NCBI RefSeq assembly: GCF_017573465.1
Contig: NZ_JAGEPF010000004.1
Span: 310,001 to 374,000, forward strand
Source: Actinomadura violacea
GTDB lineage: Bacteria > Actinomycetota > Actinomycetes > Streptosporangiales > Streptosporangiaceae
Direction: 5' to 3'
Length of the DNA: 64,000 nt
Shown here one piece after another: positions 9,276 through 26,669 of the stretch. A program made the position numbers and the translations under genes. Each line of letters opens with the position of its first letter. The first letter of the stretch is position 1. Under the pieces are notes generated by a model that was not told where the DNA came from, searched no databases, and was given only the letters and a program-made list of their open reading frames with translations.

Positions 9276-10514
9276 ATGACCGAGGCGGCGACGCCGACCG
9301 ACGCCGAACCCGGAGCCGTCCGCCGGCCCGACCGCCGGCTCGCGCTGATCGTGGTGCTGGGCGCGCTGACCGCGATGGCGCCGCTGTCGATCGACATGTA
9401 CCTGCCGGCGCTGCCCCGCGTCGCCGCGGACCTGTCGACCGGGGCGATGCAGGCGCAGCTCACGCTGACCGCCTGCGTGATCGGCCTGGCCGTCGGCCAG
9501 GCCGTCGCGGGGCCGCTGAGCGACGCGCTCGGCCGGCGCCGGCCGCTGCTCGCCGGGCTCGCCGCGTACGCCGTCGCGTCGCTGCTGTGCGTCGCGGCGC
9601 CGAACGTGGAGACGCTGATCGCGCTGCGGGTCGTGCAGGGCGCGGCCGGCGCGGCGGGGATCGTGATCGCGCGCGCCGTCGTCCGGGACCTGTACGACGG
9701 GATCGCGGCGGCGAAGTTCTTCTCGACGCTGATGCTGGTCAACGGGCTGGCGCCGATCCTCGCGCCGGTCATCGGCGGGCAGCTGCTGCGGGTCATGCCG
9801 TGGCCCGGCGTGTTCGGCGTGCTCTCCGGCATCGGCGTCGCGCTGCTCCTGGCGACGCTCGCCGGGCTCGGCGAGACGCTGCCGCCCGGGCGGCGGGAGA
9901 CCGGCGGGCTGCGCGCGACGCTGCGGACGTTCCGGGCGCTGGCGGGCGACCGGACGTTCACCGGCCCCGGGCTGGCGCTCGCGCTGGCGTTCGCCGCGAT
10001 GTTCACCTACATCTCCGGCTCGCCGTTCGTGCTGCAGGACATCTACCACCTGTCGCCGCAGGCGTTCAGCGTCGCGTTCGGCGTGAACTCGCTCGGCATC
10101 GTCGCGGCGGGGCAGCTCAGCGGGTGGCTCGCCGGGCGCGTCGCGCTGGGCCGGCTGCTGGCCGCGGGGCTGGCGACCGTCGCCGCGGGCGGGCTGCTCC
10201 TGCTCGCCGCGGTGCTGGCCGGCGGCGGGCTGCCCGCGGTGCTGCCCGCGCTGTTCCTCGTCGCGTCCGGGCAGGGGCTGATCATGCCGAACGCGACGGC
10301 GCTCGCGCTGGCCGACCGGCCGCCGCGGGTCACCGGGAGCGCGTCGGCGCTGCTCGGGCTGTCGCAGTTCGCGCTCGGCGGCGCCGCCGGGCCGCTCGCC
10401 GGGATCGCCGGGCCGCGCACCGCGCTGCCGATGGCGGTGACGATCGCGGTGCTGTCGCTGCTCGCCGCCGCCGTCGCCGCGGCCGCACCGTCGAGGGTTG
10501 CGTCAGCGAACTGA
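9276..10514 (+). CDS. Bcr/CflA-type MFS drug efflux transporter
   Basis: A 412-residue major facilitator protein with 12 predicted transmembrane helices. The segment PLSIDMYLPALP in helix 1 is characteristic of the Bcr/CflA (DHA1) group. GPLSDALGRRRPLL between helices 2 and 3 is MFS motif A. It should export small drugs or metabolites by proton antiport from the cytoplasmic membrane. ATG start after gaccgatg-type context; the upstream gap of 79 bp contains no visible terminator, so it may be cotranscribed with the nitroreductase. It ends 19 bp before the LLM oxidoreductase, which has its own promoter. Confidence 0.87.
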   Translation: MTEAATPTDAEPGAVRRPDRRLALIVVLGALTAMAPLSIDMYLPALPRVAADLSTGAMQAQLTLTACVIGLAVGQAVAGPLSDALGRRRPLLAGLAAYAVASLLCVAAPNVETLIALRVVQGAAGAAGIVIARAVVRDLYDGIAAAKFFSTLMLVNGLAPILAPVIGGQLLRVMPWPGVFGVLSGIGVALLLATLAGLGETLPPGRRETGGLRATLRTFRALAGDRTFTGPGLALALAFAAMFTYISGSPFVLQDIYHLSPQAFSVAFGVNSLGIVAAGQLSGWLAGRVALGRLLAAGLATVAAGGLLLLAAVLAGGGLPAVLPALFLVASGQGLIMPNATALALADRPPRVTGSASALLGLSQFALGGAAGPLAGIAGPRTALPMAVTIAVLSLLAAAVAAAAPSRVASAN

Positions 10515-10533
10515 CCGTGCGTACGGTCGGGAC
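10498..10533 (+). promoter_or_regulatory. Leaderless promoter for LLM oxidoreductase
   Basis: TTGCGT (10498-10503), an 18-bp spacer and TACGGT (10522-10527) form a good sigma-70-type promoter. Six bases later comes the GTG at 10534, with no ribosome site, so the transcript probably starts at the GTG itself. The promoter overlaps the end of the efflux gene. Confidence 0.6.
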
Positions 10534-11439
10534 GTGATCGTTCGCATCGGCATGGCACCCGCGTCCGGCGCACTCGGACCCGACTCCCTCACCGCCCTCG
10601 CCCTCGGCCTCGAACGCGAGGGCTTCGACTCGCTCTGGGTCTCCGAGCGGGCGTCCGGGCCGACGCTCGACCCCGTCGTCGTGCTGACGCACGCGGCGGC
10701 GCTGACCTCCAGGATCAAGCTCGGCACCGCGGTGATGACGGTGCCGGGCCGCTCCCCCGCCCTGCTCGCCAAGGAGCTGGCGTCGCTGGACGTGCTGGCG
10801 CGCGGCCGGCTGCTGCCCGCGTTCGGGCTCGGCCAGCGGCTGCCCGCCGAGCAGCAGGCGTTCGGCGTCCGCCGCGAGGAGCGCGCCGAGATCTTCGAGG
10901 AGGCGCTGCCGCTGCTGCGCCGCTTCTGGGCCGGCGACGCCGTCGTCCACGACGGCCCGCGCTTCCGCTACGACGGGCTGCGGATCGAACCGCGGCCCGT
11001 CAAGGGCGGCTTCGACGTGTGGATGGGCGGGACGTCGAACGCGGAACTGCGCCGCACCGGGCGGCTCTCGGACGGCTGGCTCGCCGCGTTCACCACGCCC
11101 GCGGAGGCCGAGCGCGGCCGGACCGCGGTGCAGGACGCCGCCGCTGCCGCCGGACGCGAGATCGAGGAGGAGCACTTCGGCGCCGTCGTCCCGTACCGGC
11201 GCGGCCCCCTGCCGGAGGAGGCCGCCGCGCGGTTCGCCCGCGTCCGCCGAATCAGCGGGCCCGCCGATCCCGCCGATGTCGTCCCCGACCTCGACGGCCT
11301 GGAGGCGCACCTCGAGCGGCTGGTCGACGCGGGCCTGTCGAAGTTCGTGCTGGCGCCGTTGTCGGCCCCCGCCGACTGGGACGCCGAGCTCGCCGACGTC
11401 CGCGACGCCGCCCTACACCTCCAGACCCGAGCCCGTTGA
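10534..11439 (+). CDS. LLM-class F420/flavin-dependent oxidoreductase
   Basis: A 301-residue luciferase-like monooxygenase-fold protein. Indicators are the TIM-barrel start 'VRIGMAPASG', 'EREGFDSLWVSER', 'RIKLGTAVMTVPGRSP' and 'LLPAFGLGQR', normal for F420-dependent actinobacterial members. It probably catalyses hydride transfer from F420H2 or a flavin; the substrate cannot be read from sequence. The GTG at 10534 is chosen because it sits six bases after a -10 box. An open frame upstream from 10498 overlaps the promoter and is not credible. It ends at a strong inverted repeat shared with the convergent TetR gene. Confidence 0.82.
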   Translation: MIVRIGMAPASGALGPDSLTALALGLEREGFDSLWVSERASGPTLDPVVVLTHAAALTSRIKLGTAVMTVPGRSPALLAKELASLDVLARGRLLPAFGLGQRLPAEQQAFGVRREERAEIFEEALPLLRRFWAGDAVVHDGPRFRYDGLRIEPRPVKGGFDVWMGGTSNAELRRTGRLSDGWLAAFTTPAEAERGRTAVQDAAAAAGREIEEEHFGAVVPYRRGPLPEEAAARFARVRRISGPADPADVVPDLDGLEAHLERLVDAGLSKFVLAPLSAPADWDAELADVRDAALHLQTRAR

Positions 11440-12239: not shown

Positions 12240-13217
12240 ATGCCCGCAGTCGAGACCGTCCGCGGACCCGTCGACGTCGCCGCCCTGGGCCGCACGTACA
12301 TGCACGAGCACGTCTTCTGCCTCAGCACCGAGAACGTCGAGAACTACGGCGCGGGCGACTGGTGGGACGAGGAGGAGAAGGTCGCCGACGCGGTGGCCAA
12401 GCTCCGCGAGCTGCCCGCCCGGGGCATCACCACGATCGCGGACCCGACGGTGTGGGGGCTCGGCCGCTACATCCCGCGCATCCAGCGGATCGCCGAGCAG
12501 GTCCCCGAGCTGAACATCATCGCGGCGACCGGCCTCTACACCTACAACGACCTGCCGTTCCAGTTCCACTACCGGGGTCCGGGCACGCTGATGGAGGGCC
12601 CGGACCCGATGACCGCCGACTTCGTCCGCGACCTGACGCAGGGCATCGCCGACACGGGCGTGAAGGCGGCGTTCCTCAAGTGCGCGATGGACGCGCCGGG
12701 CCTCACGCCCGGCGTGGAGCGGGTGCTGCGGGCCGTGGCGGGCGCGCACCGCGAGACGGGTGCCCCGGTGACGGTGCACACCGAGAGCTCCAGCCACGCG
12801 GGGCGGACGGTCGTGGAGATCCTCGGCAAGGAGGGCGTCGACCTCGGCAAGGTCGTCATCGGGCACGCCGGCGACAGCAACGACCTCGACTACCTGATGG
12901 AGCTGGCCGACACCGGCGCGATCCTCGGCATGGACCGGTTCGGGCTGGACGCCATCAACTCCACGGCCGACCGGGTCGGCACGGTCGCGGCGCTGTGCGA
13001 GCGCGGCTACGCCGACCGGATGGTGCTCAGCCACGACGCGAGCTGCTTCATCGACTGGTTCGGGCCGGACCCGGCGACCGTGCCGGCGTTCGCGCCGAAC
13101 TGGAACTACCGGCACATCAGCGACGACGTGCTGCCCGCGCTGCGCGAGGCGGGCGTGCCGGACGCGCAGATCGACCAGATGCTCGTCGCGAACCCGCGCC
13201 GGTACTTCACCCGCTGA
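12240..13217 (+). CDS. Phosphotriesterase-family metallohydrolase (lactonase-like)
   Basis: A 325-residue amidohydrolase-superfamily enzyme of the PTE group. All binuclear-metal ligands are present: H22-x-H24 (MHEH), K147 (bridging carbamylated lysine, in FLKCA), H180 (VHTES), H209 (GHAGD) and D266 (SHDAS). Length and the lack of a signal peptide fit cytoplasmic PTE-like lactonases, which open lactone rings such as N-acyl-homoserine or aliphatic lactones and have weak phosphotriesterase activity. The ATG at 12240 has gaggga upstream. Its last 11 bp overlap the convergent permease gene. Controlled by the divergent TetR. Confidence 0.88.
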   Translation: MPAVETVRGPVDVAALGRTYMHEHVFCLSTENVENYGAGDWWDEEEKVADAVAKLRELPARGITTIADPTVWGLGRYIPRIQRIAEQVPELNIIAATGLYTYNDLPFQFHYRGPGTLMEGPDPMTADFVRDLTQGIADTGVKAAFLKCAMDAPGLTPGVERVLRAVAGAHRETGAPVTVHTESSSHAGRTVVEILGKEGVDLGKVVIGHAGDSNDLDYLMELADTGAILGMDRFGLDAINSTADRVGTVAALCERGYADRMVLSHDASCFIDWFGPDPATVPAFAPNWNYRHISDDVLPALREAGVPDAQIDQMLVANPRRYFTR

Positions 13218-14946
13218 GGACGCGCGCGACGGGCCGGGTGGCGGCGCGGCGGGCGGGCACGGCCGTCAGCACGGCGATGGCGAGCAGCGCGGCCGGGACG
13301 ACGGCGGCGAGCCAGGCCGCCGGCACGCCGGCCCCGGCGTGGCCGCCGCCGAGGGCGAGCGCCGCGCGGTGCACCAGCAGCCCCAGCGGGACGCCGGCGA
13401 CGGCCGCGACGGCGCCGGGCAGCAGCTGCGCGGCGGCGAGCCCGGCGGTGACCTGGCCGGGCGTGGCGCCGAGCACGCGGATGAGCGCGGCGGGCCGGGC
13501 CGTGTCGAGCGAGGTCGTCCAGGCGGTGAGGACGGCGTTGACGGCGGCGAGCAGGAGCAGCGCGAGCGACAGGACCAGGACGATCTCGCCGATCCGCTCG
13601 GTCACCGGGTTCCCGGCGCCCGGCACGAAGTCGGGCCCGGCGGCGCCCGCGTCCTTGCGCGCCACGTCCCGGTGCAGCGCGAGGGCGGCGACGACCATCG
13701 CGACGGTGACGGCGGTGCTGAGGGCGGCGAGGACGGTCCGGCGCGGGCGGCGGGCGGCGACCCGGACGCCGAGCAGCAGCGGGACGGGCAGCCGCGCCGA
13801 CAGCGCGACCGGCCGGGACCGGCGTCCCGGTCCGCGCACCGGCTCGGTCAGCGCGCGAGCCGTGCTGATCCGCGCGCCGCGCAGCGCGGGGACGGCCGTG
13901 GCGGCGGCGGTGACGGCGAGCGCGGCGAGCAGCACGGCCGCGACGGTGCCGGGGGTGGGGGCGGGGGCCGTCCCGGTGCCGAGCAGTCCGGCGTTCGGGC
14001 CGGTCAGCGCCGGGGAGACGGCCCAGCCGGCGAGCAGGCCGAGGACGCCCGCGGCGAGCGCGAGCGCCAGGTGCTCGGCCATCAGCACGGCCGTGACCAG
14101 GGCGGGGGTCGCGCCGGCGGCCTTGAGCAGGCCGACGCGGCGGCCCTGCTCGGCGAGCCGGGCGCCGACCAGCAGCGCGACGCAGAGTCCGGCGAGGATC
14201 GCCAGCGCCCACGTGCCGCCGAGCAGCGCGCCGTTGGCGAGGTGCAGCTCGCTGGTTGCGTAGGCGCCGATGTCCTGGGCGGAGCGGACGCCCGGGTGCG
14301 CGGCGGCGAACGCGGGCGCCGCCGCGGGGTCGGTCAGGCGCAGTGGCACCGTCCAGCGGGTGGCCGCTGCCGCGGGCGCCAGCCGGGCCGTGTCGGCGCG
14401 GGTCAGCCAGACCAGCCCGGGCGTCGCGGACGGGTAGGGGGCGCGCGCGGCCGTCACCGCGATGCCGGCGACCCGGAAGTCCCGTCCGGCCAGGACGATC
14501 CGGTCGCCGGGGCGGACGTGCAGCGCGCCGGCGAACGCGCGTTCGACCACGGCCGTCCCCGGGGAGAGCCAGCGCCCGGCGGTGACGTAGGGCCGGTCGA
14601 GGTCGGACGGTGCGGTGTCCCGCCCCTGGACGACCGCGTTGACCTGCGTGTTCTTTGCCCGCAGCGAGGTGGAGAGGGTCGGCTGGGGGCGGCCGGCCTT
14701 CGCCACGCCGTCCGCGTGGGCCAGGGCCCGCAGTGACGCGGCGTCGGTCATGGTCGCGACCGCGTCGGGCGCGGCCGTGGCCGCCCTGGTCCGCTGCCAG
14801 GGCGCGCCGGCGGCGTCGCGGACGAGCAGCCCGAGGGTGAGCGTGGTGGCGGCCGCCGCGACCGCGATCACGAGCAGCAGCGCCTGCGCGGGCCGCCGCC
14901 TCAGGTCGCGCAGGGCGAGCCGGGCGACGATCAGGGTCCGTCCCAT
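13207..14946 (-). CDS. FtsX-like ABC transporter permease without a nearby ATPase
   Basis: A 579-residue membrane protein. It has one N-terminal helix (residues ~20-42), an extracytoplasmic domain to ~240, then repeated helices in two FtsX-type blocks (one about 250-350 after the extracytoplasmic domain, one at the C-terminus). This is the shape of actinobacterial MacB/LolC-type permeases for peptides, lipids or drugs. Such permeases need an ATP-binding subunit, normally the neighbouring gene; none is visible on either side here. Its stop overlaps the lactonase by 11 bp. A promoter with an operator-like palindrome lies directly upstream, so expression is probably repressible. Confidence 0.8.
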   Translation of the reverse strand: MGRTLIVARLALRDLRRRPAQALLLVIAVAAAATTLTLGLLVRDAAGAPWQRTRAATAAPDAVATMTDAASLRALAHADGVAKAGRPQPTLSTSLRAKNTQVNAVVQGRDTAPSDLDRPYVTAGRWLSPGTAVVERAFAGALHVRPGDRIVLAGRDFRVAGIAVTAARAPYPSATPGLVWLTRADTARLAPAAAATRWTVPLRLTDPAAAPAFAAAHPGVRSAQDIGAYATSELHLANGALLGGTWALAILAGLCVALLVGARLAEQGRRVGLLKAAGATPALVTAVLMAEHLALALAAGVLGLLAGWAVSPALTGPNAGLLGTGTAPAPTPGTVAAVLLAALAVTAAATAVPALRGARISTARALTEPVRGPGRRSRPVALSARLPVPLLLGVRVAARRPRRTVLAALSTAVTVAMVVAALALHRDVARKDAGAAGPDFVPGAGNPVTERIGEIVLVLSLALLLLAAVNAVLTAWTTSLDTARPAALIRVLGATPGQVTAGLAAAQLLPGAVAAVAGVPLGLLVHRAALALGGGHAGAGVPAAWLAAVVPAALLAIAVLTAVPARRAATRPVARVLSG

Positions 14947-14954
14947 GGTGCTTA

Positions 14955-14983
14955 TAGATAACGGTTATCCATGGGAAGGTCAA
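14955..14983 (-). promoter_or_regulatory. Promoter and operator of the permease gene
   Basis: Read on the minus strand: TTGACC (14983-14978), 17-bp spacer, TATCTA (14960-14955), then 8 nt to the ATG, so nearly leaderless. The odd palindrome GATAAC-n-GTTATC (14957-14969) covers the -10 box and spacer end, a typical repressor position. No regulator gene for it lies next door. Confidence 0.65.
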
Positions 14984-18500: not shown

Positions 18501-19169
18501 ATGACGAATCTGCCGGAACACTCCGGTACTCCCGGCCCGGCGGAGATGCGGGCGGGCGACGCCGACCGGGAGCGCGTCGCGCAGGTGCTGCGCGACGCGG
18601 CCGGCGAGGGCCGGCTCACGCTCACCGAGCTCGACGAGCGGCTCGACGCGGTGTACGCGGCGAAGACCTACGCCGAGCTGGAGCCGATCACCCGCGACCT
18701 GCCGGCGGCGGGAGCGCCCGCCGCCGCGCCCGCGCCGCAGTCCGGCGCCGACTGGCGGCCCGTCGAGGGCGCGCCGTCCTGGTCGTCCGGCATCGGGATC
18801 ATGAGCGGCTTCACCCGGACCGGCGTGTGGAACGTCCCGCGCTCGTTCTTCTCGTTCGCGTTCTGGGGCGGCGGCAAGATCGACCTGCGCGACGCCCGGT
18901 TCGCCGAGAAGGAGGTCGTGATCTGGGCGTTCGCGCTGATGGGCGGCGTCGAGATCGTCGCGCCGGAGGACATCTCGGTGCACGTCAAGGGCCTCGGCAT
19001 CATGGGCGGCTTCGACCACGGCGCGAGCGCCGCGGGGGTGCCCGGCTCCCCCACGGTCGTCGTCAAGGGCTTCGCGTTCTGGGGCGGCGTCGACGTCAAG
19101 CGCCGCGCCCGGCGGAACGAGAAGAAGCTGCGCAAGGAGCTGAAGAAGCGCGCGGACGGCGGCGGCTGA
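18501..19169 (+). CDS. DUF1707 / LiaF-like membrane-stress protein
   Basis: A 222-residue protein. Residues ~15-70 are a DUF1707 (SHOCT-like) helical domain with the usual 'RAGDADRERVAQVLRDA' start and 'LDERLDAVYAAKTYAEL'. A Pro/Ala linker follows, then repeated beta motifs 'MSGFTRTG', 'FWGGGKIDLRDA', 'MGGVEIVAP' and 'MGGFDHG', as in the C-terminal domain of LiaF-type cell-wall stress proteins. It ends in a Lys/Arg-rich tail. No transmembrane helix is evident. The likely role, sensing of envelope damage, is inferred from family. It converges on the THEP1-like gene with a 13-bp gap. Confidence 0.82.
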   Translation: MTNLPEHSGTPGPAEMRAGDADRERVAQVLRDAAGEGRLTLTELDERLDAVYAAKTYAELEPITRDLPAAGAPAAAPAPQSGADWRPVEGAPSWSSGIGIMSGFTRTGVWNVPRSFFSFAFWGGGKIDLRDARFAEKEVVIWAFALMGGVEIVAPEDISVHVKGLGIMGGFDHGASAAGVPGSPTVVVKGFAFWGGVDVKRRARRNEKKLRKELKKRADGGG

Positions 19170-19182
19170 CCCCGCCGCCCGG

Positions 19183-19752
19183 TCATCGGCGCCGGACGAG
19201 TTCGCCGAGGTAGAGCGACATCATCCGGGTGAGGCTGTCCCTGTTCGCCTCGGTCAGCAGGAACGTCTCGACCCCGGCGCGCTTCTTGAGGGCGTCGGTC
19301 CACGGGGTGCTGCGCAGCACGATCGTGCCGAACACCAGGGCGTCGCTCTCGTCGGAGAGAAGGCCGAGCACCGCGTCCTTGAACGCCTCGGAGTAGAGCT
19401 GCATCGGGCCGATCTCGTCCAGGACGAGGATCGCTCCGCCGGGGTGCTCGGCGGCCTTGCGCATGAGCGGCACGCAGACGTTCTCCAGAAAGTCCAGCTC
19501 GATGCCGTAGCGGCCGACGCCGGCGCTGTTCGGGCGGCCGACCCGCAGCGGGCTCGCCGAGTCCACCGAGGCGAGGACGCCTTCGCCGCCGTCCAGCGAG
19601 GTCAGCCCGAACCCGCGGCGCGCACCGTCCCGCCGGACCTCGCCCGCAAAGAAGCCCGCGAAGTGCTCGCGGCCGACCGCGTCGACCACGCGCCGCACGG
19701 CGGTGGTCTTCCCGGCGCCCTTGTCGCCGGTGAGGAGCAGGAATCGTCCCAT
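19183..19752 (-). CDS. THEP1-like nucleoside-triphosphatase
   Basis: A 189-residue P-loop NTPase of the THEP1 (NTPase_1) family. Walker A GDKGAGKT is at 9-16 and Walker B ILVLDEIG at ~108-115 (D112, E113). THEP1 proteins hydrolyse NTPs slowly and without strict base preference. It is the last gene of the seven-gene caspase/CHAT operon, 32 bp downstream of the caspase. In this context it may remove NTPs or a nucleotide signal made by the upstream kinases (inference). Length is normal and both motifs are intact, so it is probably active. Confidence 0.82.
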   Translation of the reverse strand: MGRFLLLTGDKGAGKTTAVRRVVDAVGREHFAGFFAGEVRRDGARRGFGLTSLDGGEGVLASVDSASPLRVGRPNSAGVGRYGIELDFLENVCVPLMRKAAEHPGGAILVLDEIGPMQLYSEAFKDAVLGLLSDESDALVFGTIVLRSTPWTDALKKRAGVETFLLTEANRDSLTRMMSLYLGELVRRR

Positions 19753-19784
19753 GTCGCGTCCTAGTGTCGAGCGGCTCCGCGCCG

Positions 19785-20555
19785 CTATCTGAAGATCGGG
19801 AGGTGCGCTCCCTTGACCGTGCCGTGCATCACCGGGTTCTGCCGCGACCGGCTGTAGGCGGACACGCCCTCGTGGACCCGGTCGTAGAGGGTCGACAGGC
19901 CGATGCGCTCGCCCCCGTCGCGCGAGGTCAGCTCCTTGCGCAGGAAGTAGGTGAAGATCCCGTGCCGCAGGGACGGGTCCTCCCAGGCGACCTCGTCGTC
20001 GGCGGCGGCGCCGAGGAAGACGGTGCCCTCGCCGAGCCGCAGGTCGGCGAGCCGGACCGCGGCCCGGTTCTCCCGCCGGCGGGCCGCGAGCACGGGGCCG
20101 GCGATGCCGCGCCCGCCGGAGAAGCCGCTGAAGCAGGCGTCGGTGACGAACACGACCAGCGCCGCCGGGAGCCGCGCGGCCAGCCGCGCCAGGTCCAGCT
20201 CGACGTCGATCGACGTCGCCAGCAGCGAGTCGTACCCGCTGTCGTGGCAGACCAGGTACCGCGAGGCGACCGGCGCGGCGGGCGCGCCCAGCTCCGGGGA
20301 GCCGTGCCCGGCGAAGTAGACCAGGACCACGTCGCCGGCGGACGACGCCCGGGGAAGCTCCACCCCGATCGCGTGCATGATGGCCGCGCGGGTGGCCCGG
20401 TGGTCGAACAGCTCGGTGACCTCGACGGAGTCGGAGAACGAGGAGCCCCGCAGCATCGCCGCGACCGACTCGGCGTCGCTGCGCGCGAACCGCAGGTCGT
20501 CGATGGCCGGGTCGAGGTAGGCGTCGATGCCGATGACGACGGCGTGCAGGCGCAT
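19785..20555 (-). CDS. Caspase-family cysteine protease (C14, metacaspase-like)
   Basis: A 256-residue stand-alone caspase domain. It opens with the core strand RLHAVVIGIDAY. The catalytic dyad is H84 in YFAGHGSP and C141 in FVTDACFSG. A segment with 'GTVFLGAAADDEVAWED' and 'HGIFTYFL' forms the second half of the fold. No signal peptide or fused domain exists, so control must come from partner proteins, most obviously the CHAT-STAND protein encoded first in the operon. The ATG overlaps the PfkB stop by one base (TGATG). Predicted role: executing protease in a suicide or defence cascade; the substrate could be an operon neighbour. Confidence 0.88.
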   Translation of the reverse strand: MRLHAVVIGIDAYLDPAIDDLRFARSDAESVAAMLRGSSFSDSVEVTELFDHRATRAAIMHAIGVELPRASSAGDVVLVYFAGHGSPELGAPAAPVASRYLVCHDSGYDSLLATSIDVELDLARLAARLPAALVVFVTDACFSGFSGGRGIAGPVLAARRRENRAAVRLADLRLGEGTVFLGAAADDEVAWEDPSLRHGIFTYFLRKELTSRDGGERIGLSTLYDRVHEGVSAYSRSRQNPVMHGTVKGAHLPIFR

Positions 20556-21475
20556 CAGGCCGGCCCCGCCTTCCCGGGCGCCCCCGCCTTCCCGGCCCCC
20601 GTTCCGGCGAGGTCGGTGAGCATCTCGCAGGTCAGGCCGTCGCCGTAGCCGCGCAGGCCGAGCGGGCCGGGCACGGGCCGGTCGAGGTCGCGCGCCACGC
20701 CGCCGCGCGTGCGCAGCGCCTGCCGGTAGACCGGCCCGGCGCGGTAGCGCAGCACGGTCGCGCCGACGTGCTCCAGCAGCAGCCCGGCCGTCTCGTCGAG
20801 GTGCCGGGCGGTGAGCGTCTCACCGCGGTCGCCGAGGCCGAGCAGCCGCCGCGCGGACGACAGCTCGGACACCAGCCCGTGGACCGGCCCCACCGCCGCG
20901 GTGATCGACGGGACGTCCGGGAAGTGGCGGTGGAACTCGTGCGGGACGATGTCGAGCAGCAGCTTCACGCCCGCCGCGGCGGCGCCGGCCGCGATCTCGC
21001 GCACGCTCCCGTACGTCGGCGCGGCCTTCCGGCTCAGGCTGAGGCCGGACAGCCAGACCGCGTCCACCTCGGGCACGGCGTCGAGCGCCGCGTTCACCGC
21101 CGCGCCGCACAGCCCCTCGTTGGCGGTGCCGCGGGACGCGAGCATGGCGCGCGAGCCCGACGAGCCGTAGGCGATGACCGCGCGGCCGGTCGGGCGGCGG
21201 TCGTCGACCGCCAGATGATGCCGGTACCCCGCGTCCGCGAGCGCCGCGGTGAGCATCCGCCCGGCGGCGTCCGCCCCGACCGCGCCGACGATCACCGGGG
21301 TGTGGCCGTACCGGACGGCCGCCGCGGCGAAGTGGTAGGACGTGCCGCCCGGCAGGTCGGCCAGCGGCGTCCAGAGCGAGAAGTCGCCGCCGTCCCGCGC
21401 GAGGGCGGAGTCGAGCGCCACCTCCTCCTCGACGACCGTGTCGAGGCAGAGGTCGCCGAGGACGAGCACCTTCAC
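20555..21475 (-). CDS. PfkB/ribokinase-family kinase
   Basis: A 306-residue sugar or nucleoside kinase (317 if the upstream ATG at 21508 is used). The start KVLVLGDLCLDTV, the 'LPGGTSYHFAAAAVRYG' ligand loop near residue 40 and 'GAVGADAAGRML' follow the family plan. The C-terminal active-site motif is GYGDGLTCEM instead of the usual GAGDxF, keeping the catalytic Asp. The family phosphorylates sugars or nucleosides (ribose, adenosine, pseudouridine). Between an NDP kinase and a caspase, nucleoside phosphorylation is an attractive guess. The GTG at 21475 starts the conserved fold; no clear ribosome site was seen for either start. Confidence 0.75.
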   Translation of the reverse strand: MKVLVLGDLCLDTVVEEEVALDSALARDGGDFSLWTPLADLPGGTSYHFAAAAVRYGHTPVIVGAVGADAAGRMLTAALADAGYRHHLAVDDRRPTGRAVIAYGSSGSRAMLASRGTANEGLCGAAVNAALDAVPEVDAVWLSGLSLSRKAAPTYGSVREIAAGAAAAGVKLLLDIVPHEFHRHFPDVPSITAAVGPVHGLVSELSSARRLLGLGDRGETLTARHLDETAGLLLEHVGATVLRYRAGPVYRQALRTRGGVARDLDRPVPGPLGLRGYGDGLTCEMLTDLAGTGAGKAGAPGKAGPA

Positions 21476-21536
21476 GCCGGCCGCCCGGCGCCGCGCCCGT
21501 ACCCGCATCCGCGCTGCGGCGCGGCCGCGCCGGGGC

Positions 21537-22079
21537 TCACCGCGAGGCCGTGTCCGCGCACCAGATCCCGATCTCCCTCCGCGCCTCGGCCGCGTCGCCG
21601 GAGGCGTGCACGATGTTCCACAGCGCCCGCTTCTCCCGGAAGCTCGCCGTCACGACGTCGGCGCAGTGGCCGCCGCGCAGCGACCCCGCCTCGGCCCGCA
21701 GCGGCAGCGTCGCGCCGACGATCCGCCGCGTCCTGCCGACCGCCGACGGGCCCGCCACCTGCAGCACCACGATCGGCCCCTCGCACAGGTAGTCGACCAG
21801 CCGCATCCGGATCAGCCGGCCGACGTCGGACGCGCTCTGGCAGCCGGTGAGCGCGCGCCAGTCGACCCCGTCGTCGCGCAGCGCCGCGATCGCCCGGCTC
21901 CCGGCGTTCTCCAGCCACTCCGGGTCGTCGGTGTAGTGGGCCAGCACCTGCTCCCGCGTCGCCCGCGCCAGCCGCAGCCCGACGAGGCGCAGGCCGGCCC
22001 GCTCGAGCCGGCCGATCACCGTCCCGACGAGCCCGCGCGCGACGCCGTCGGGCTTGACGATGACCAGGGTCGTCTCCAC
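21537..22079 (-). CDS. Nucleoside-diphosphate kinase family protein
   Basis: A 180-residue protein. 'TLVIVKPDGVARGLVGTVIGRLE' (given here in parts: K9, P10, D11) is the standard NDP kinase opening. The catalytic His is H158 in NIVHAS, with N155, R135 and T124 in their expected places. Compared with ~140-residue enzymes it has an insert of about 35 residues after HYTDDPEWLEN (residues ~55-95), known in some divergent NDP kinases. It should transfer the gamma phosphate from NTP to NDP. The start is a GTG two bases after the GTP cyclohydrolase stop, so the two are surely coupled. This is unlikely to be the housekeeping copy. Confidence 0.8.
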   Translation of the reverse strand: METTLVIVKPDGVARGLVGTVIGRLERAGLRLVGLRLARATREQVLAHYTDDPEWLENAGSRAIAALRDDGVDWRALTGCQSASDVGRLIRMRLVDYLCEGPIVVLQVAGPSAVGRTRRIVGATLPLRAEAGSLRGGHCADVVTASFREKRALWNIVHASGDAAEARREIGIWCADTASR

Positions 22080-22081
22080 CG

Positions 22082-22687
22082 CTAGACGCCCTCGCGGTTG
22101 AGCGCGCCGATCGTGTAGCCGCGGGCCAGCTTGTCCTCGTAGTAGGGGCGGAGCGCCGGATGCTCCTCGAGGTCGACCGCGACCGAGTGCGTCCCGCTCA
22201 CGGTGACGTCCCGGTCCCGCAGGCCCTTGGCCTTGTCGGGGCTGTCGGACAGCAGCAGGACGGACCCGACCCCCAGGTCGTGGAGCACGGCCGCGGCGCC
22301 GTGGTAGGTCCGCCGGTCGGCGGCGTAGCCGAGCCGGACGTAGGCCTCCGTCTGCGGGATCGACTCGCGCTCGGCGAGGTCGGCGGCCAGCATCAGCGCC
22401 ATGTGGCCGTTCCCCCGGCCGTCCTGGTCGAGCCAGACGATGACGCCCCGGCCGTGCTCCTTGATGAAGATCTGCGCCGAGATGAGCTGCTCCCGGCAGT
22501 CGCATTCGACGCTGTTGAAGACATGCGCGGAGATGCAGTCGGAATGGACCCGGCAGGGGACGTCCGCGGCGCCCTCGACGTCGCCGTGGACGAGAACGAT
22601 CGCCTGGTCGTGCCCGTCGTAGTAGAGGATCTCGCGCCACACTCCGAACGTGGTCCGCAGGGACCTTTCGGCGAGCCGCCTGACCAT
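22082..22687 (-). CDS. GTP cyclohydrolase II-like enzyme (RibA paralog)
   Basis: A 201-residue protein. The zinc ligands C51, C62 and C64 (SDC...ECDC) are intact, as is the Asp/Arg pair D124/R126 (AADRR) equivalent to D126/R128 of E. coli RibA. The loop is QDGRGNGH rather than QEGRNIGL, and the Tyr of the R-A-Y-A-L segment (E. coli Y105) is Ala102 here, with the nearby Lys now Leu98. GTP cyclohydrolase II opens GTP to a diaminopyrimidine, formate and pyrophosphate. No other riboflavin gene is near. It may make an altered product, deplete GTP, or be a captured, weakened domain. The ATG has gaggtg about nine bases upstream. Confidence 0.78.
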   Translation of the reverse strand: MVRRLAERSLRTTFGVWREILYYDGHDQAIVLVHGDVEGAADVPCRVHSDCISAHVFNSVECDCREQLISAQIFIKEHGRGVIVWLDQDGRGNGHMALMLAADLAERESIPQTEAYVRLGYAADRRTYHGAAAVLHDLGVGSVLLLSDSPDKAKGLRDRDVTVSGTHSVAVDLEEHPALRPYYEDKLARGYTIGALNREGV

Positions 22688-22722
22688 TGTCTCTCACCTC
22701 GGTTCCGGGGGCCGGCCCTCCG

Positions 22723-22977
22723 TCACGGCCGGCGCAGGCCAAGATTGTCGAAAAGCATGTCCTGCAGCGCCATCACATGACTGCAGGTGTTCCTGGCCGC
22801 ATAGAAATCGCACGTGCAACTCCAGTTCCCGTCCGAGAAGGAGATGTCGCGCTCCGCGTGCTCGGACCGCATCGTCACCCGGAATTCGCGCAGCGTCATC
22901 CGTTCGGGTTCGGCGGCGTAGCGTCGGGCCTTCGCGCGTTTCGCGGCGATCGCGCGGTCCTCTTCGTCAACGTTCAC
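22723..22977 (-). CDS. SWIM zinc-finger mini-protein
   Basis: An 84-residue protein with a charged N-terminus (Asp/Glu, then Lys/Arg/Ala) and a C-terminal SWIM finger: C54-x-C56-x8-C65-x-H67 followed by VMALQDML. SWIM fingers bind nucleic acid or protein partners. Its ATG overlaps the STAND gene stop (ATGA), so it is made together with that protein, and 35 bp separate it from the cyclohydrolase. Its small size suggests an adaptor or sensor subunit. A second, larger SWIM protein occurs in the MoxR-vWA system at 57169. Confidence 0.82.
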   Translation of the reverse strand: MNVDEEDRAIAAKRAKARRYAAEPERMTLREFRVTMRSEHAERDISFSDGNWSCTCDFYAARNTCSHVMALQDMLFDNLGLRRP

Positions 22978-25748
22978 GGAATCTTCCGATCATCTCTGCC
23001 GTCCACCGCGGCCGGCAGCGGGACGCCCGCCGCCGCGGCCCAGCCGGCGATCTCCTTGGTGAGCCCGATGTTCAGCCGGCGGGCGAGGTCGGCGGCCGCG
23101 GCGGCGCGTTCGGCCGCCTCGTCCGGGGCGCCGCGGGCGGCGGCGAGCATGGCCTGCCCGTACTGGGCGTGAGCGATCCACACGAGGTCGTTCAGTCCTT
23201 CCGAAATGTGCCGGCTCTCCCGGAACAGCCGTTCGGCGGCCGGCACGTCGCGGCGTTCCAGAGCGAGTTTCGCCAGCTGGAACAGCGTCGCCTGCTCGGT
23301 CACCGGGTCGCCGACCGCGCGTTCGATGGCGAGCGCCTCGAGATAAAGCTCCTCAGCGGCGTCCATGATGCCATCCGCGTGCTCGATGCGGGCCAGTTCA
23401 TGAAGTGTCTTGGCGCGATTCCGTTCCTCCCCGTTCGCCTCACGAACAGTGCGAACCCGCTCAAACAACCGCCGGGCCCCGGTCAGGTCGCCCCGGCGGT
23501 ACAGCACCTTTCCGAGCTGGTGGTCGATGTCGGCGAGATCCCGGACCGCGCCGGCGGAATCGGCCTCGGCGAGCTCCCGCCCGGTGCGGTACGCGGTCTC
23601 CGAACCGTCCAGGTCGCCGCACCGGTACAGCACCTGCCCCATGCCGCGCAGGGCGGTCAGCTCGTCGTGCCGGCGCCCGAGCGCGCGCGCCGCCTCGCCG
23701 GCCAGCCGGTAGTCGGCGGCGGCCTGGTCGAACTCGGCCAGCCGGTAGCGCACCAGCCCCCGCACGAGCAGGAAGCCGAGCCGGGCGGACGCGCCGTCGG
23801 GGATCATCGCCGCCGCGGACTCCCCGAGGTCGAGGAGCTCCTTCGCGACCAGCCACGGGCCCCGCCGCACCAGCGGCAGCCCCGCGTCGCCGGCCACCGC
23901 GGTGCAGTAGGCGGTGATCTCCTTCCACATCCCGAGCTCCCCGGCGAGCCGCAGGGTGCGCCGGACGTTGCCGAGCTCGTCGCCCGGGTGGTCCGCCGGC
24001 TCGGCCGCCAGGGACGCCTGGAGCGCGAGATGCCTGCCGGCCAGGGAGCGGACCTTCTCGTCGGACAGCCCGTCGTGGCGCGAGCGCAGGTGTGCGACGA
24101 CGAGCGGGTGCATGACGCAGTGCACCTCGCCGGCGTGGTCGTAGCGCCCGATGATCTCCGCGCCCTGCAGCCCGTTGAGCACCTCGGAGCACTGGGCGAG
24201 GGCGGCGTCCCCGGCGCCCGCGGCCCGCACGAGACCGCGCCAGGTGCTCTCCCGGCAGCGGTCCTCGAACACCGCCCAGGCGTCCAGGAAGTCGGCGGTG
24301 AGCGGGAGCTTCTTCTCCAGCTTGCCGATGATCTGGCCGAGCACCTCGGAGTTGATCCCGGCGGGGCCGCGGACGCGGTGCCGCCGCAGGTCCTCCTTGA
24401 GCGTCGACCACGGCTGGCCGATGTCGAGGGCGGAGCCTGCCGAGACGAGCGTCCGCGGGTGGTTGAAGCACAGCTCGGCGGCGACCGCCATCTCGTCGCC
24501 GAGGATCCGCTCGGCCCGCTCCCGGCCGCCGAGCATGCTCGTCACGAGGTCCCGGCAGGCGGTGACGGGCAGGGACCCCACCGTGATGCGGTTGGGGCCG
24601 ACCAGCTCCGCGAACTCCTTCGGGTGGTCCTGCGACACGAGGATCGCGCGGCCGCCGACGCTGGTGTCCCACGAGGCGAGCAGCGCGCGCAGGTCCCGGA
24701 GCGCGCCGTCGGACGCGGACTCGAGGTTGTCCAGGACGAGCAGGCACCGGCTCGCCGACAGCCGCTGCGAGACCTGGGTGGCCAGGGCCGCCTCCGGCGC
24801 CCGCGCCAGCTCCCAGCCGAGGGCCCGCGCGACGCCCTCGGAGACCGGTTCGGCGCCGGGCCGGAAATAGCCGATGCCGTCGGGGAACCGCCATCCATAA
24901 CGGCTCGCCGCGGTCTGCGCCAGGGCGGTTTTACCGGACCCGGTGACCCCGGTGATCGCGATGAACGGCGAGTGCGTCCGCTCGCCGAAAAAGGCGTCGT
25001 AGATCTGCAGGGCCTCGTTCTCGCGGTCGAAGAACCGGTTATGCACGGCGGGAAAGCTGTTGTGCGGCGCGCACGGGGAGAACTTCGGCACGGCGCGCCC
25101 GCGCTCGACGTCGAAGACCGCGCCGCCCGCCGCCTTGCCCCGCACCCGCAGCAGCGGCCTGCCCTCCGGGCTCAGCCCGGACGCCTCCGCGGACGCCTCG
25201 GTCACCGCCCGCTCCGGGCTCACCCCGCTGAACAGCATCCGGTAGACGTCGGCGAGGACGGCCCGGGCGTGCGCGCGGGGGACGTCGCCCGCCACCGAGA
25301 TGGCGGTGACCTCGGCGGCCGACCGGGCGATGCAGTCGGCCAGCTCCTCGGTCGCGCAGCCGTTCAGGACGAGCAGCAGGTCGGGGCACTGCCGGAAGAG
25401 CCGCGCGAACCGCTCGTAGGACAGCCGCACCAGCAGGCCGTTCTCCGCCTCGAACTCCAGGTGCTCGCCGGTCGCGTGCATCGCGATGTGGACGACGTCG
25501 AACCCGCCGGCGGCGAGCGCCATCCGCAGCATGCCCACCGTCGGCGGGTTGAGCGCGACGATCTCGACGTCGACGCGCAGCTCGTCGAGGGCGCGGTAGA
25601 TCTCCTCGAGCTCGTGCCGGGGGTCCAGCCGCTCGGGGTCGTTGAGCGGGGACGGGGTGACGAGGAGGATGCGGTGCCGCGCGGTGCTGGCCGCCAGGCT
25701 CTCGGTCAGCGTCACGGGATGCCTGCTCGAACCCAAGGATCCGGACAT
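22974..25748 (-). CDS. CHAT protease - NB-ARC (STAND) - TPR protein
   Basis: A 924-residue three-part protein. Residues ~25-220 look like a CHAT caspase-like protease, with H91 (VHIAMHAT) and C131 (LVLNGCATEE) as the probable dyad. Residues ~235-500 are an NB-ARC/STAND ATPase with Walker A GVTGSGKT (267-274) and Walker B LLVLDN (336-341). From about 600 to 900 there are tandem TPR repeats, typical ligand sensors. STAND proteins oligomerise on ligand binding, which would activate the CHAT domain. It is the first gene of the operon, so it is the likely sensor and initiator, with the separate caspase at 19785 as a possible substrate. The ATG at 25748 has a weak GGGA upstream. Confidence 0.87.
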   Translation of the reverse strand: MSGSLGSSRHPVTLTESLAASTARHRILLVTPSPLNDPERLDPRHELEEIYRALDELRVDVEIVALNPPTVGMLRMALAAGGFDVVHIAMHATGEHLEFEAENGLLVRLSYERFARLFRQCPDLLLVLNGCATEELADCIARSAAEVTAISVAGDVPRAHARAVLADVYRMLFSGVSPERAVTEASAEASGLSPEGRPLLRVRGKAAGGAVFDVERGRAVPKFSPCAPHNSFPAVHNRFFDRENEALQIYDAFFGERTHSPFIAITGVTGSGKTALAQTAASRYGWRFPDGIGYFRPGAEPVSEGVARALGWELARAPEAALATQVSQRLSASRCLLVLDNLESASDGALRDLRALLASWDTSVGGRAILVSQDHPKEFAELVGPNRITVGSLPVTACRDLVTSMLGGRERAERILGDEMAVAAELCFNHPRTLVSAGSALDIGQPWSTLKEDLRRHRVRGPAGINSEVLGQIIGKLEKKLPLTADFLDAWAVFEDRCRESTWRGLVRAAGAGDAALAQCSEVLNGLQGAEIIGRYDHAGEVHCVMHPLVVAHLRSRHDGLSDEKVRSLAGRHLALQASLAAEPADHPGDELGNVRRTLRLAGELGMWKEITAYCTAVAGDAGLPLVRRGPWLVAKELLDLGESAAAMIPDGASARLGFLLVRGLVRYRLAEFDQAAADYRLAGEAARALGRRHDELTALRGMGQVLYRCGDLDGSETAYRTGRELAEADSAGAVRDLADIDHQLGKVLYRRGDLTGARRLFERVRTVREANGEERNRAKTLHELARIEHADGIMDAAEELYLEALAIERAVGDPVTEQATLFQLAKLALERRDVPAAERLFRESRHISEGLNDLVWIAHAQYGQAMLAAARGAPDEAAERAAAAADLARRLNIGLTKEIAGWAAAAGVPLPAAVDGRDDRKIP

Positions 25749-25907
25749 GCGGTCATTCCCATCGCAGCTGAGTACGGCGAAAGTTTACTCCAGCGCGTCA
25801 GGATATTGGAGTCCGAGAGTGGACACTATGCATTTGTACTGATTAGCCGCAGTCAGACATATCGGGATTGATGCCGTGCGCGGAAAGGCGCCCGCGGGAG
25901 GCGGCCG
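25749..25907. promoter_or_regulatory. Upstream region of the CHAT-STAND operon (AT-richer)
   Basis: About 160 bp between the STAND start and the tandem repeat. It is clearly richer in A+T than its surroundings (about 25780-25870), as expected for a promoter. Several -10-like boxes occur on the minus strand (TAAACT, AATATC), but none has a convincing -35 partner. No gene is seen here. Confidence 0.4.
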
Positions 25908-25971
25908 GCCGGCGAGACGGTCAGCCGGCGAGACGATCGGCCGGCGAGACGGTCAGCCGGCGATGCGGTCC
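25908..25971. repeat. 16-bp tandem repeat, four units, crossing a TetR stop codon
   Basis: Units 25908-25923, 25924-25939, 25940-25955 and 25956-25971 all match gccggcgagacggtca with one to three changes. The TetR stop codon (complement 25953-25955) lies at the end of unit 3, so unit 4 codes for the TetR C-terminus and units 1-3 are downstream. Looks like local replication slippage. Confidence 0.9.
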
Positions 25972-26669
25972 AGCCACTCCGCCAGCAGGGCCTGCTCGGC
26001 CGGGGACAGGCCGGACGGCGGTTCGGCCGCCAGCGCGGCGCGCAGCGAGACCGCCGCGGCGGCCCTGCCGTCCCGCTCCCCCGGCCCGCCGTCCGGCGGA
26101 TCGCCCTGGACGGTGACGGCCGCGAGGACGGCCTCGCGGGTGCGGACCGACAACTCGCCGCCCTCGTCGGCGCCACCCCCGTCGTCGCCGCCCGCGATGA
26201 GGGCGAGGACGACGCCGACCCCGGCGGCCTGGATCATCTGGGCCGCGGTCTCGACGGGGACGCGGAGCCGGCCCGCGCGGGCGACGGCGCCGACGAGGCC
26301 GAGCAGGATCGCGTACGCCTCGTCGACGGCGGGGCTGGTGCGCGCCGCCCGGTACATCAGCACGTAGAACGCGGGGTTGCGCAGGCCGAAGTCGACGTGC
26401 AGGTCCCAGCCGCGGCGCAGGTCGTCGACGGGGTCGCCGGTCGCGGGCTGGGCGCGCTTGCCGGCGAGGTACTCGGCCAGGCCGTGCGCGGCGACGGCGT
26501 CGAACAGTCCCTGCTTGTCGCCGAAGTGGTGGTAGAGCGTCGGGGCGCCGACGCCCGCCGCGGCGCAGATCGCGCGCGTGGAGACGGGCTCGCCGCCCGA
26601 CTCGGCGATGAGCCGGACGGCCGCCCGCAGGATCCGGTCGCGCCCGTCGGCGTCCTTCTGCGCACTCAC
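25953..26669 (-). CDS. TetR-family regulator (next to alcohol dehydrogenase)
   Basis: A 238-residue TetR protein. The helix-turn-helix is at ~10-58 (DRILRAAVRLIAESGG, VGAPTLYHHFGDKQ). The C-terminal part is long and has a Gly/Asp-rich insert near 165-180. It starts at GTG 26669, seven bases after a -10 box and touching a 12-bp palindrome, so it is probably leaderless and autorepressed. It is divergent from the zinc alcohol dehydrogenase at 26843, its likely second target. Its 3' end lies in the 16-bp tandem repeat. Confidence 0.87.
   Translation of the reverse strand: MSAQKDADGRDRILRAAVRLIAESGGEPVSTRAICAAAGVGAPTLYHHFGDKQGLFDAVAAHGLAEYLAGKRAQPATGDPVDDLRRGWDLHVDFGLRNPAFYVLMYRAARTSPAVDEAYAILLGLVGAVARAGRLRVPVETAAQMIQAAGVGVVLALIAGGDDGGGADEGGELSVRTREAVLAAVTVQGDPPDGGPGERDGRAAAAVSLRAALAAEPPSGLSPAEQALLAEWLDRIAG

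Follow-up and report, generated by a model that had tools for sequence, protein, structure and literature searches.

The seven-gene operon

The analysed stretch of 64,000 nucleotides from Actinomadura violacea (contig NZ_JAGEPF010000004.1, positions 310,001 to 374,000), here called the window, belongs to a genome of 11.17 Mb and carries on its minus strand, from position 25748 down to 19183, seven genes arranged head to tail, which are considered here as a candidate conflict system. In 5′ to 3′ order these genes are:

22974–25748, minus strand: CHAT-STAND-TPR protein, 924 amino acids (Pfam AAA_22 and TPR_12; CHAT profile match to 8tl0)
22723–22977, minus strand: SWIM-type zinc-finger protein, 84 amino acids (4 bp overlap with the STAND gene; Pfam SWIM)
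22082–22687, minus strand: GTP cyclohydrolase II (GCHII)-like enzyme without the catalytic tyrosine, 201 amino acids (Pfam GTP_cyclohydro2; structure 2bz0)
21537–22079, minus strand: nucleoside diphosphate kinase (NDK), long type, 180 amino acids, GTG start (Pfam NDK, 98.4 bits)
20555–21475, minus strand: PfkB/ribokinase-family protein, 306 amino acids, GTG start (Pfam PfkB; motifs degenerate by eye)
19785–20555, minus strand: caspase-type protease (C14), 256 amino acids (Pfam Peptidase_C14; His-Cys dyad)
19183–19752, minus strand: THEP1-type nucleoside triphosphatase, 189 amino acids (Pfam NTPase_1; structures 1ye8 and 2i3b)

All seven open reading frames are present and the gaps between consecutive genes amount to −4, 35, 2, 61, −1 and 32 bp, so that the single operon with overlaps or short gaps claimed in a preliminary description of this DNA is borne out. 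The third-position GC content was 0.81–0.99 in the six reading frames measured in frame (the NDK gene being the one left out), and the GTG starts of the NDK and PfkB genes were placed by reading the sequence. In comparison with the corresponding genes of Actinomadura sp. KC06, the ratio of nonsynonymous to synonymous substitution rates (dN/dS) ranges from 0.12 to 0.32; each of the seven is subject to purifying selection.

An island with empty sites

The operon is a sporadically gained island. It lies between two convergent genes which do not belong to the system, and the following features delimit it:

19170–25950, no strand: island, DNA missing between the two convergent flank genes in relatives (locus comparison)
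18501–19169, plus strand: left flank, DUF1707/LiaF-like gene, outside the system (annotation)
25953–26669, minus strand: right flank, TetR-family regulator gene, outside the system (annotation)
25749–25833, minus strand: upstream region, probable promoter and leader (alignment with KC06)

When 65 genomes of the genus were searched at E 1e-60, 36 had a match to the TetR regulator, including the genome of the window but not that of KC06. Of the 35 other genomes 34 were compared (G270, with its match at a contig end, was left out); both flank genes could be read in 29 of these, and the DUF1707 gene was not found in the remaining five. None of the 29 readable relatives has the operon between the flank genes. 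In 21 relatives at most 70 bp separate the flanks; the remaining eight have other DNA of 343–2247 bp in between, which in three of them resembles, by eye, reductase, glyoxalase and regulator genes. In the loci of six relatives the flanks align at ~77–94% and the operon is missing. The longest word common to both ends of the island has 10 bp, and Pfam found no recombinase among the seven operon proteins. At three loci (L129, L131 and L132) 1.9–2.2 kb of other genes lie between the DUF1707 and TetR genes, which indicates repeated gain or loss of DNA at this site. Immediately beyond the TetR gene, on its 3′ side (window ~25890–25960), there is a short GGCGAGACGGTCAGCC-like repeat. Independently of the operon, an FtsX/MacB-type permease gene occupies positions 13207–14946 on the minus strand, and the stretch ~13246–14957 is missing in all five relatives' loci reaching this place.

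Actinomadura sp. KC06 contains all seven genes in identical order and shares no flanks with the window. The DNA of both aligns at 75% over window positions 19207–25833, which covers the operon without its last 24 bp and extends 85 bp beyond the first start codon on the upstream side; the flanks themselves show no alignment. The same order of seven genes without the flanks of the window is more than would be expected by chance. No match to a sigma-70-type promoter was found in the upstream region 25749–25833.

The unit is rare. As the genome searches scored only part of the candidates in each genome (4 for STAND, 8 or 9 for the GCHII-like protein), weak relatives can be missed in the following counts. 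The GCHII-like protein was found at E 1e-40 in 6 of 341 genomes of the family, with two close matches (G000, the genome of the window, and G275 at 83%) and four at 46–51% identity. The N-terminal 583 amino acids of the STAND protein gave matches at E 1e-15 in 2 of 338 family genomes, the same two that hold the close GCHII-like matches. Within the genus, NDK was found at E 1e-20 in 2 of 65 genomes and the caspase at E 1e-15 in 5 of 65, closely in the STAND/GCHII-like pair of genomes and at 31–32% in the other three. Nothing new came from a class sample of 394 genomes, and a sample of 356 genomes from the family of the Lentzea genome described below yielded one extra GCHII-like match without partners. 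Among plasmids, THEP1 had three distant matches and the GCHII-like protein had none at E 1e-30; scans of IMG/VR returned two THEP1 matches of 22 residues and none for the GCHII-like protein.

A core of five parts

When an alignment of GCHII-like proteins was scanned against the genome_contigs collection (described as covering 84,980 species), 66 loci were obtained, whose neighbouring genes were checked up to 9 kb on each side, less on short contigs. In one of them, from Lentzea californiensis (L063), the caspase, THEP1, STAND and GCHII-like genes adjoin each other in this order (CASP-THEP-STAND-GCH), with 28–40% identity to their counterparts in the window. Here the SWIM domain forms the C-terminal part of the STAND protein (residues 879–935; 44% identity over 59 amino acids, E 2e-14), a fusion that ties the free-standing SWIM gene in the window to the STAND gene. 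The Pfam SWIM scores are just below the cut-off of 19.6 bits in the window (18.8) and also below it in KC06 (19.1) and Lentzea (17.1).

The Lentzea locus lacks NDK and PfkB. Since Lentzea retains five parts without these two, the shared core consists of CHAT-STAND-TPR, SWIM, the GCHII-like enzyme, the caspase and THEP1, and two of the four nucleotide enzymes, the GCHII-like protein and THEP1, look like core members judging from these comparisons. NDK matches of at least 66% identity occur only in Actinomadura and on one contig of 13876 bases which also bears GCHII-like and THEP1 matches; NDK and PfkB were seen only in Actinomadura-type loci (PfkB was not searched singly in the protein database). 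The idea that the four nucleotide enzymes belong equally to the operon, as implied by the preliminary description, is not supported. The joint conservation of all seven families that it proposed to look for is seen in KC06, and five parts are together in Lentzea. The opposite pattern named there, scattered nucleotide enzymes with only caspase and STAND staying together, was not found for the GCHII-like protein and THEP1, which stay with caspase and STAND in Lentzea. Further genes surround the Lentzea core (L063:380-4590 and 9772-10676): upstream of it are a Mrr_cat endonuclease gene and a gene for a 672-amino-acid protein, which has no Pfam match but in which the motif NGCHTTEL looks CHAT-like by eye, and transposase and integrase-core genes follow after the core.

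Pairing of the GCHII-like protein with THEP1

The association of these two enzymes was also followed in a protein database, by comparing the sizes of the contigs that hold the GCHII-like matches (best 120 of 614) with those that hold THEP1 matches (best 120 of 164). Pairs obtained in this way are inferred from equal contig sizes and not from read DNA; those of the window itself and of KC06 were confirmed directly. Between the GCHII-like matches and the top 49 THEP1 matches 16 sizes of at least 3 kb are shared, the window's own included. Among the best 28 GCHII-like matches, 18 lie on contigs of at least 5 kb, and for 13 of these a THEP1 match is found on a contig of equal size, compared to 2 of 25 further down. 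The divergences of both proteins are correlated across 17 pairs (Mantel r 0.68, with none of 10000 permutations reaching this value); the short coincidences at 1157, 1213 and 2152 bases were dropped as chance and the one at 1319, below 3 kb, was kept as a Mantel pair. The comparison did not include one THEP1 contig of 12106 bases, a size that does not occur among the GCHII-like matches. Six shared contigs are 3.9–8 kb long, so the two genes must lie close to each other there. In the tree, 15 of the 17 paired GCHII-like proteins fall into one clade of 38 tips (support 0.85). The GCHII-like protein and THEP1 therewith seem to pair widely.

NDK shares the contig sizes 432806, 40544 and 13876 with both proteins. 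In the control comparison of the GCHII-like protein with NDK only these three known loci coincide above 2 kb, plus three short ones, and that of THEP1 with NDK gave the same three loci, A. decatromicini and one short coincidence. In A. decatromicini (size 457563) NDK and THEP1 matches are shared, and its NDK is 84% identical to that of KC06; this species has no GCHII-like entry of its own among the best 120 matches, and it is a guess that its protein is hidden in the 90% cluster of KC06, which has three members.

These data bear on the idea that the nucleotide enzymes merely adjoin the protease pair by chance. The absence of NDK and PfkB from the Lentzea locus fits with it, as does the fact that relatives of the GCHII-like protein and of THEP1 are often found without proteases. 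However, the order of all seven genes is kept in KC06 with no shared flanks, Lentzea again has the GCHII-like protein and THEP1 beside STAND and caspase, and the two enzymes share contigs. Chance adjacency is therefore highly improbable overall, and for the GCHII-like protein, THEP1 and SWIM it is largely refuted by the KC06, Lentzea, pairing and fusion evidence.

Proteases and switch

The CHAT-STAND-TPR protein comprises a CHAT part (approximately residues 1–210), a P-loop part (~240–372) and TPRs (~650–810). Pfam recognised TPR_12 and AAA_22 (33.5 bits, above the cut-off); matches of the P-loop part to AAA_16 and nSTAND1 (20.4 bits) were both below their cut-offs. The STAND switch proposed earlier is supported by the AAA_22 match, but no Pfam match to NB-ARC was found at E 0.01, and the domain, judged by these profiles, would be better called a STAND-like P-loop. 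The Pfam CHAT score is weak (16.6 bits, below the cut-off of 24). A profile made of the three N-termini from the window, KC06 and Lentzea matched the solved CHAT protein 8tl0 with E 4.7e-9, with His and Cys aligned, so that the assignment as a CHAT protease (CHAT domain plus His-Cys dyad) is reached through 8tl0. CHAT matches were obtained in all three members (threshold E up to 1; best 2.5e-5), and all three keep the dyad, the His of HxxxHA and the Cys of VLNGC.

The caspase scored 57.8 bits with Peptidase_C14 (cut-off 21.4). Its dyad motifs are AGHG and DACFSG, and the dyad is present in the window, KC06 and Lentzea. The model for EACC1-associated caspases, NF047832, gave 74.3 bits, below its cut-off of 140. 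With the His-Cys dyads of both the CHAT protein and the caspase intact, the description of the operon as containing two cysteine proteases is supported.

Nucleotide enzymes

The GCHII-like enzyme was recognised by Pfam GTP_cyclohydro2 with 124.8 bits and has 2bz0 as its nearest solved structure (E 2.7e-37); the NCBIfam model TIGR00505 (ribA) gave 102.1 bits, which is under its cut-off of 205.85. Residues were counted in the best 120 of 614 protein matches and in the 66 genome loci. The three zinc cysteines (E. coli C54, C65 and C67) are kept in 120/120 and 66/66, and Arg128 is kept in 120/120 and in all 64 loci with a residue there. Tyr105 (E. coli numbering), the catalytic tyrosine needed for normal riboflavin chemistry, is found in 0/120 and in none of the 64 loci with a residue at this position. 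The window has Ala in its place, the protein matches have mostly Arg or Ala, and in the loci the position is taken by Ile, Val, Ala, Arg or Leu. A GCHII paralogue of S. coelicolor in which this tyrosine is replaced by Met reportedly stops at the formylated product, a formamidopyrimidine (Spoonamore et al. 2006). As had been stated before, Pfam found no other riboflavin gene within the operon, and on this ground and the loss of the tyrosine a riboflavin operon was rejected; two other GCHII homologues exist elsewhere in the genome, one of them in a frame of 416 codons.

Such residues invite the alternative that the GCHII-like enzyme makes a guanosine-derived signal which would switch on the STAND protein or the caspase, with THEP1 removing it or resetting the system and NDK and PfkB tuning the pool. 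The kept zinc and GTP-site residues combined with the lost tyrosine would favour a new product over the riboflavin precursor, the GCHII-THEP1 pairing on equal-sized contigs fits as well, and enzymes for nucleotide signals are common in predicted conflict systems (PMC7159879). However, besides the enzymes and the STAND protein Pfam recognised no small-molecule-binding domain in the operon, and this alternative appears rather unlikely.

The tyrosine-less GCHII family is widespread in Bacteroidota, Chloroflexota and others (Aquimarina, Spirosoma, Dokdonia, Anaerolineae), without neighbours common to all. Five loci from Nocardiopsaceae, Nonomuraea, Herbidospora and Planotetraspora (L010, L017, L020, L022 and L023) hold relatives of ~46–51% identity in a conserved neighbourhood, in which P450-like, BtpA-like and Rieske-like proteins and a permease were noticed by eye; this is possibly a biosynthetic cluster employing the same tyrosine-less enzyme. 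With an actinomycete as host and with such relatives (Nonomuraea, Herbidospora and others) in an apparent biosynthetic cluster, the operon might serve developmental cell death or the production of a specialised metabolite from GTP, with the proteases as regulators. Yet these relatives come without STAND, caspase and THEP1, 63 of the 65 genomes of the genus lack the operon's NDK, unlike what would be expected of a developmental programme, and Pfam gave no match to a transporter or typical tailoring enzyme among the seven proteins. A role outside defence is thus judged to be decidedly unlikely.

The NDK has 1xqi as its nearest solved chain (E 1.4e-39), to which its insert aligns gap-free. Lys9, Tyr49, Arg118, Thr124, Arg135, Asn155 and His158, which have a catalytic role, are invariant in 11 of 11 sequences, and the equivalog model PRK00668 gave 101.3 bits, below its cut-off of 155. 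In THEP1 (NTPase_1, 111.7 bits; cut-off 23.9) the Walker A GK, including its lysine, and the DEIG motif are invariant in five of five. The PfkB-family protein scored above its Pfam cut-off (30.1 vs 25.8 bits), and its best structure match, 6ilr (E 1.6e-5), covers just the N-terminal residues 25–176 and is to ribokinases. Compared to the signature motifs of the family, GGxxxN and GAGD (TGAGD), the window and KC06 exhibit by eye RGYGD (GYGD for GAGD, with the Asp kept) and a His for the Asn. Owing to this partial alignment and the altered motifs, kinase activity of the PfkB-family protein appears doubtful, and its earlier proposed role in phosphorylating nucleosides is a guess.

The degenerate PfkB motifs, together with the SWIM-STAND fusion in Lentzea and with inactive acquired domains described for related systems (PMC7159879), would suit a scenario in which the nucleotide enzymes act as sensors of, or as bait for, a phage attack on nucleotide metabolism and the proteases are the sole effectors. 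Against such a guard or decoy function stand the catalytic residues retained in NDK, THEP1, caspase and CHAT, the zinc ligands and Arg128 kept in the GCHII-like protein, and the purifying selection on all seven genes, and it is considered unlikely.

Proposed function

Taken together, we predict with a probability of roughly 0.45 that the operon is a STAND-protease conflict system with an effector or signal arm acting on guanine nucleotides, which is sporadically transferred. This prediction is drawn from the island with its clean empty sites and the same unit in KC06 without the flanks, from the close STAND and GCHII-like matches in the same two family genomes, from Lentzea, which keeps STAND plus SWIM, the GCHII-like protein, caspase and THEP1 in another order, and from the GCHII-THEP1 pairing combined with the intact CHAT and caspase dyads. 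It further draws on the co-occurrence of STAND, caspase and nucleotide modules in predicted conflict systems (PMC7159879). Such a system would probably act in abortive infection or programmed death. The defence role itself, the order of events, the substrate and the nature of the enzymes as effectors or signal makers are what we infer.

According to this prediction, the CHAT-STAND-TPR protein and its SWIM partner would sense an invader or damage through the TPR and SWIM parts, and the STAND domain would switch by oligomerisation driven by nucleoside triphosphates (NTPs). The CHAT protease might thereby become activated, with the separate caspase as a second protease. The tyrosine-less GCHII-like enzyme and the THEP1 nucleoside triphosphatase would constitute the core enzymatic arm, acting on GTP or other NTPs, and may either drain NTPs or convert GTP into an abnormal nucleotide of the formamidopyrimidine type. 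In the Actinomadura version NDK and the PfkB-like protein would have been added to this arm.

Several observations speak against the predicted conflict system. At 64 of the 66 loci in genome_contigs the GCHII-like gene is the only one of the seven in the flanking DNA examined, and caspase and STAND lie directly beside GCHII-THEP1 in only three loci (window, KC06 and Lentzea). None of the partners was found in the fetched regions of the four family genomes with a GCHII-like relative at 46–51%, and the THEP1 regions fetched from 17 other family genomes contained no caspase, STAND or GCHII-like match. As the GCHII-like subfamily occurs mostly without partners, its basic chemistry must be useful alone. 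In the tree, the GCHII-like protein of Lentzea splits off at the family's base and not among the other paired ones, so that its association may be either old or independent. Besides marginal TPR and P-loop matches, PADLOC recognised only the caspase as being of defence type.

A bolder version of the enzymatic arm, which we regard as improbable, would be a modified-nucleotide weapon. Here GCHII would open GTP to a formamidopyrimidine nucleotide and NDK, with PfkB, would make the triphosphate, which might poison the polymerases of phage and host or fire the CHAT-caspase cascade, with THEP1 as a safety valve. If true, this would be a counterpart in logic to the chain-terminating nucleotides of viperin, coupled to proteolytic cell death.

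Comparison with known systems

Predicted bacterial conflict systems count TPR-sensor STAND proteins and caspase-type proteases among their established components (PMC7159879, PMC8195603), and in the first of these sources STAND, caspase and nucleotide modules recur together. The NTP-dependent conflict systems predicted for multicellular bacteria (Kaur et al. 2020; PMC7159879) include MoxR-vWA ternary, GTPase-centric and EACC1-caspase systems. They resemble the operon in joining a STAND-type or other NTPase switch, caspase-superfamily peptidases and nucleotide-processing enzymes, and in being actinobacterial and sporadic. They differ in their MoxR, vWA, VMAP and EACC1 components, none of which Pfam found among the seven proteins (no EACC1 model itself was run). 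A MoxR-vWA ternary system can thus be discarded, as neither gene is among the seven, and so can a two-gene EACC1-caspase system, as the caspase adjoins PfkB and THEP1 and stays below the cut-off of NF047832. The terms cyclohydrolase, SWIM, nucleoside diphosphate, THEP1 and PfkB are absent from the main text, supplements not covered, of PMC7159879 and of the other closest paper. A literature search, outside of which most subscription papers lay, found no description of GCHII with THEP1 or of GCHII in an anti-phage role, and papers on THEP1 with caspase looked unrelated. The logic of switch plus protease is hence known, and the GCHII-THEP1 arm was not found described.

The TPR-CHAT proteases (Csx29 of Craspase; 8tl0) likewise combine TPRs with a CHAT cysteine protease having conserved His and Cys. 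In contrast to them, the CHAT part is here N-terminal to a STAND-like P-loop, a separate caspase is present, and no CRISPR gRAMP is among the seven proteins.

With RibA, the GTP cyclohydrolase II, the GCHII-like enzyme shares the zinc site and the GTP-site residues, but it lacks the catalytic tyrosine and has no other riboflavin gene beside it in the operon. The replaced tyrosine is what it would have in common with the formamidopyrimidine-producing GCHII of S. coelicolor, where the replacement is reportedly Met and not Ala as here. What distinguishes the operon is that a putative STAND-protease death switch is tied to a GCHII-like enzyme without the tyrosine needed for normal riboflavin chemistry, a combination which would predict that bacterial immunity uses a new product derived from GTP or a new effector that drains it. 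With its few genes, compact unit, clean empty sites and identified catalytic residues, this question is directly testable with one operon.

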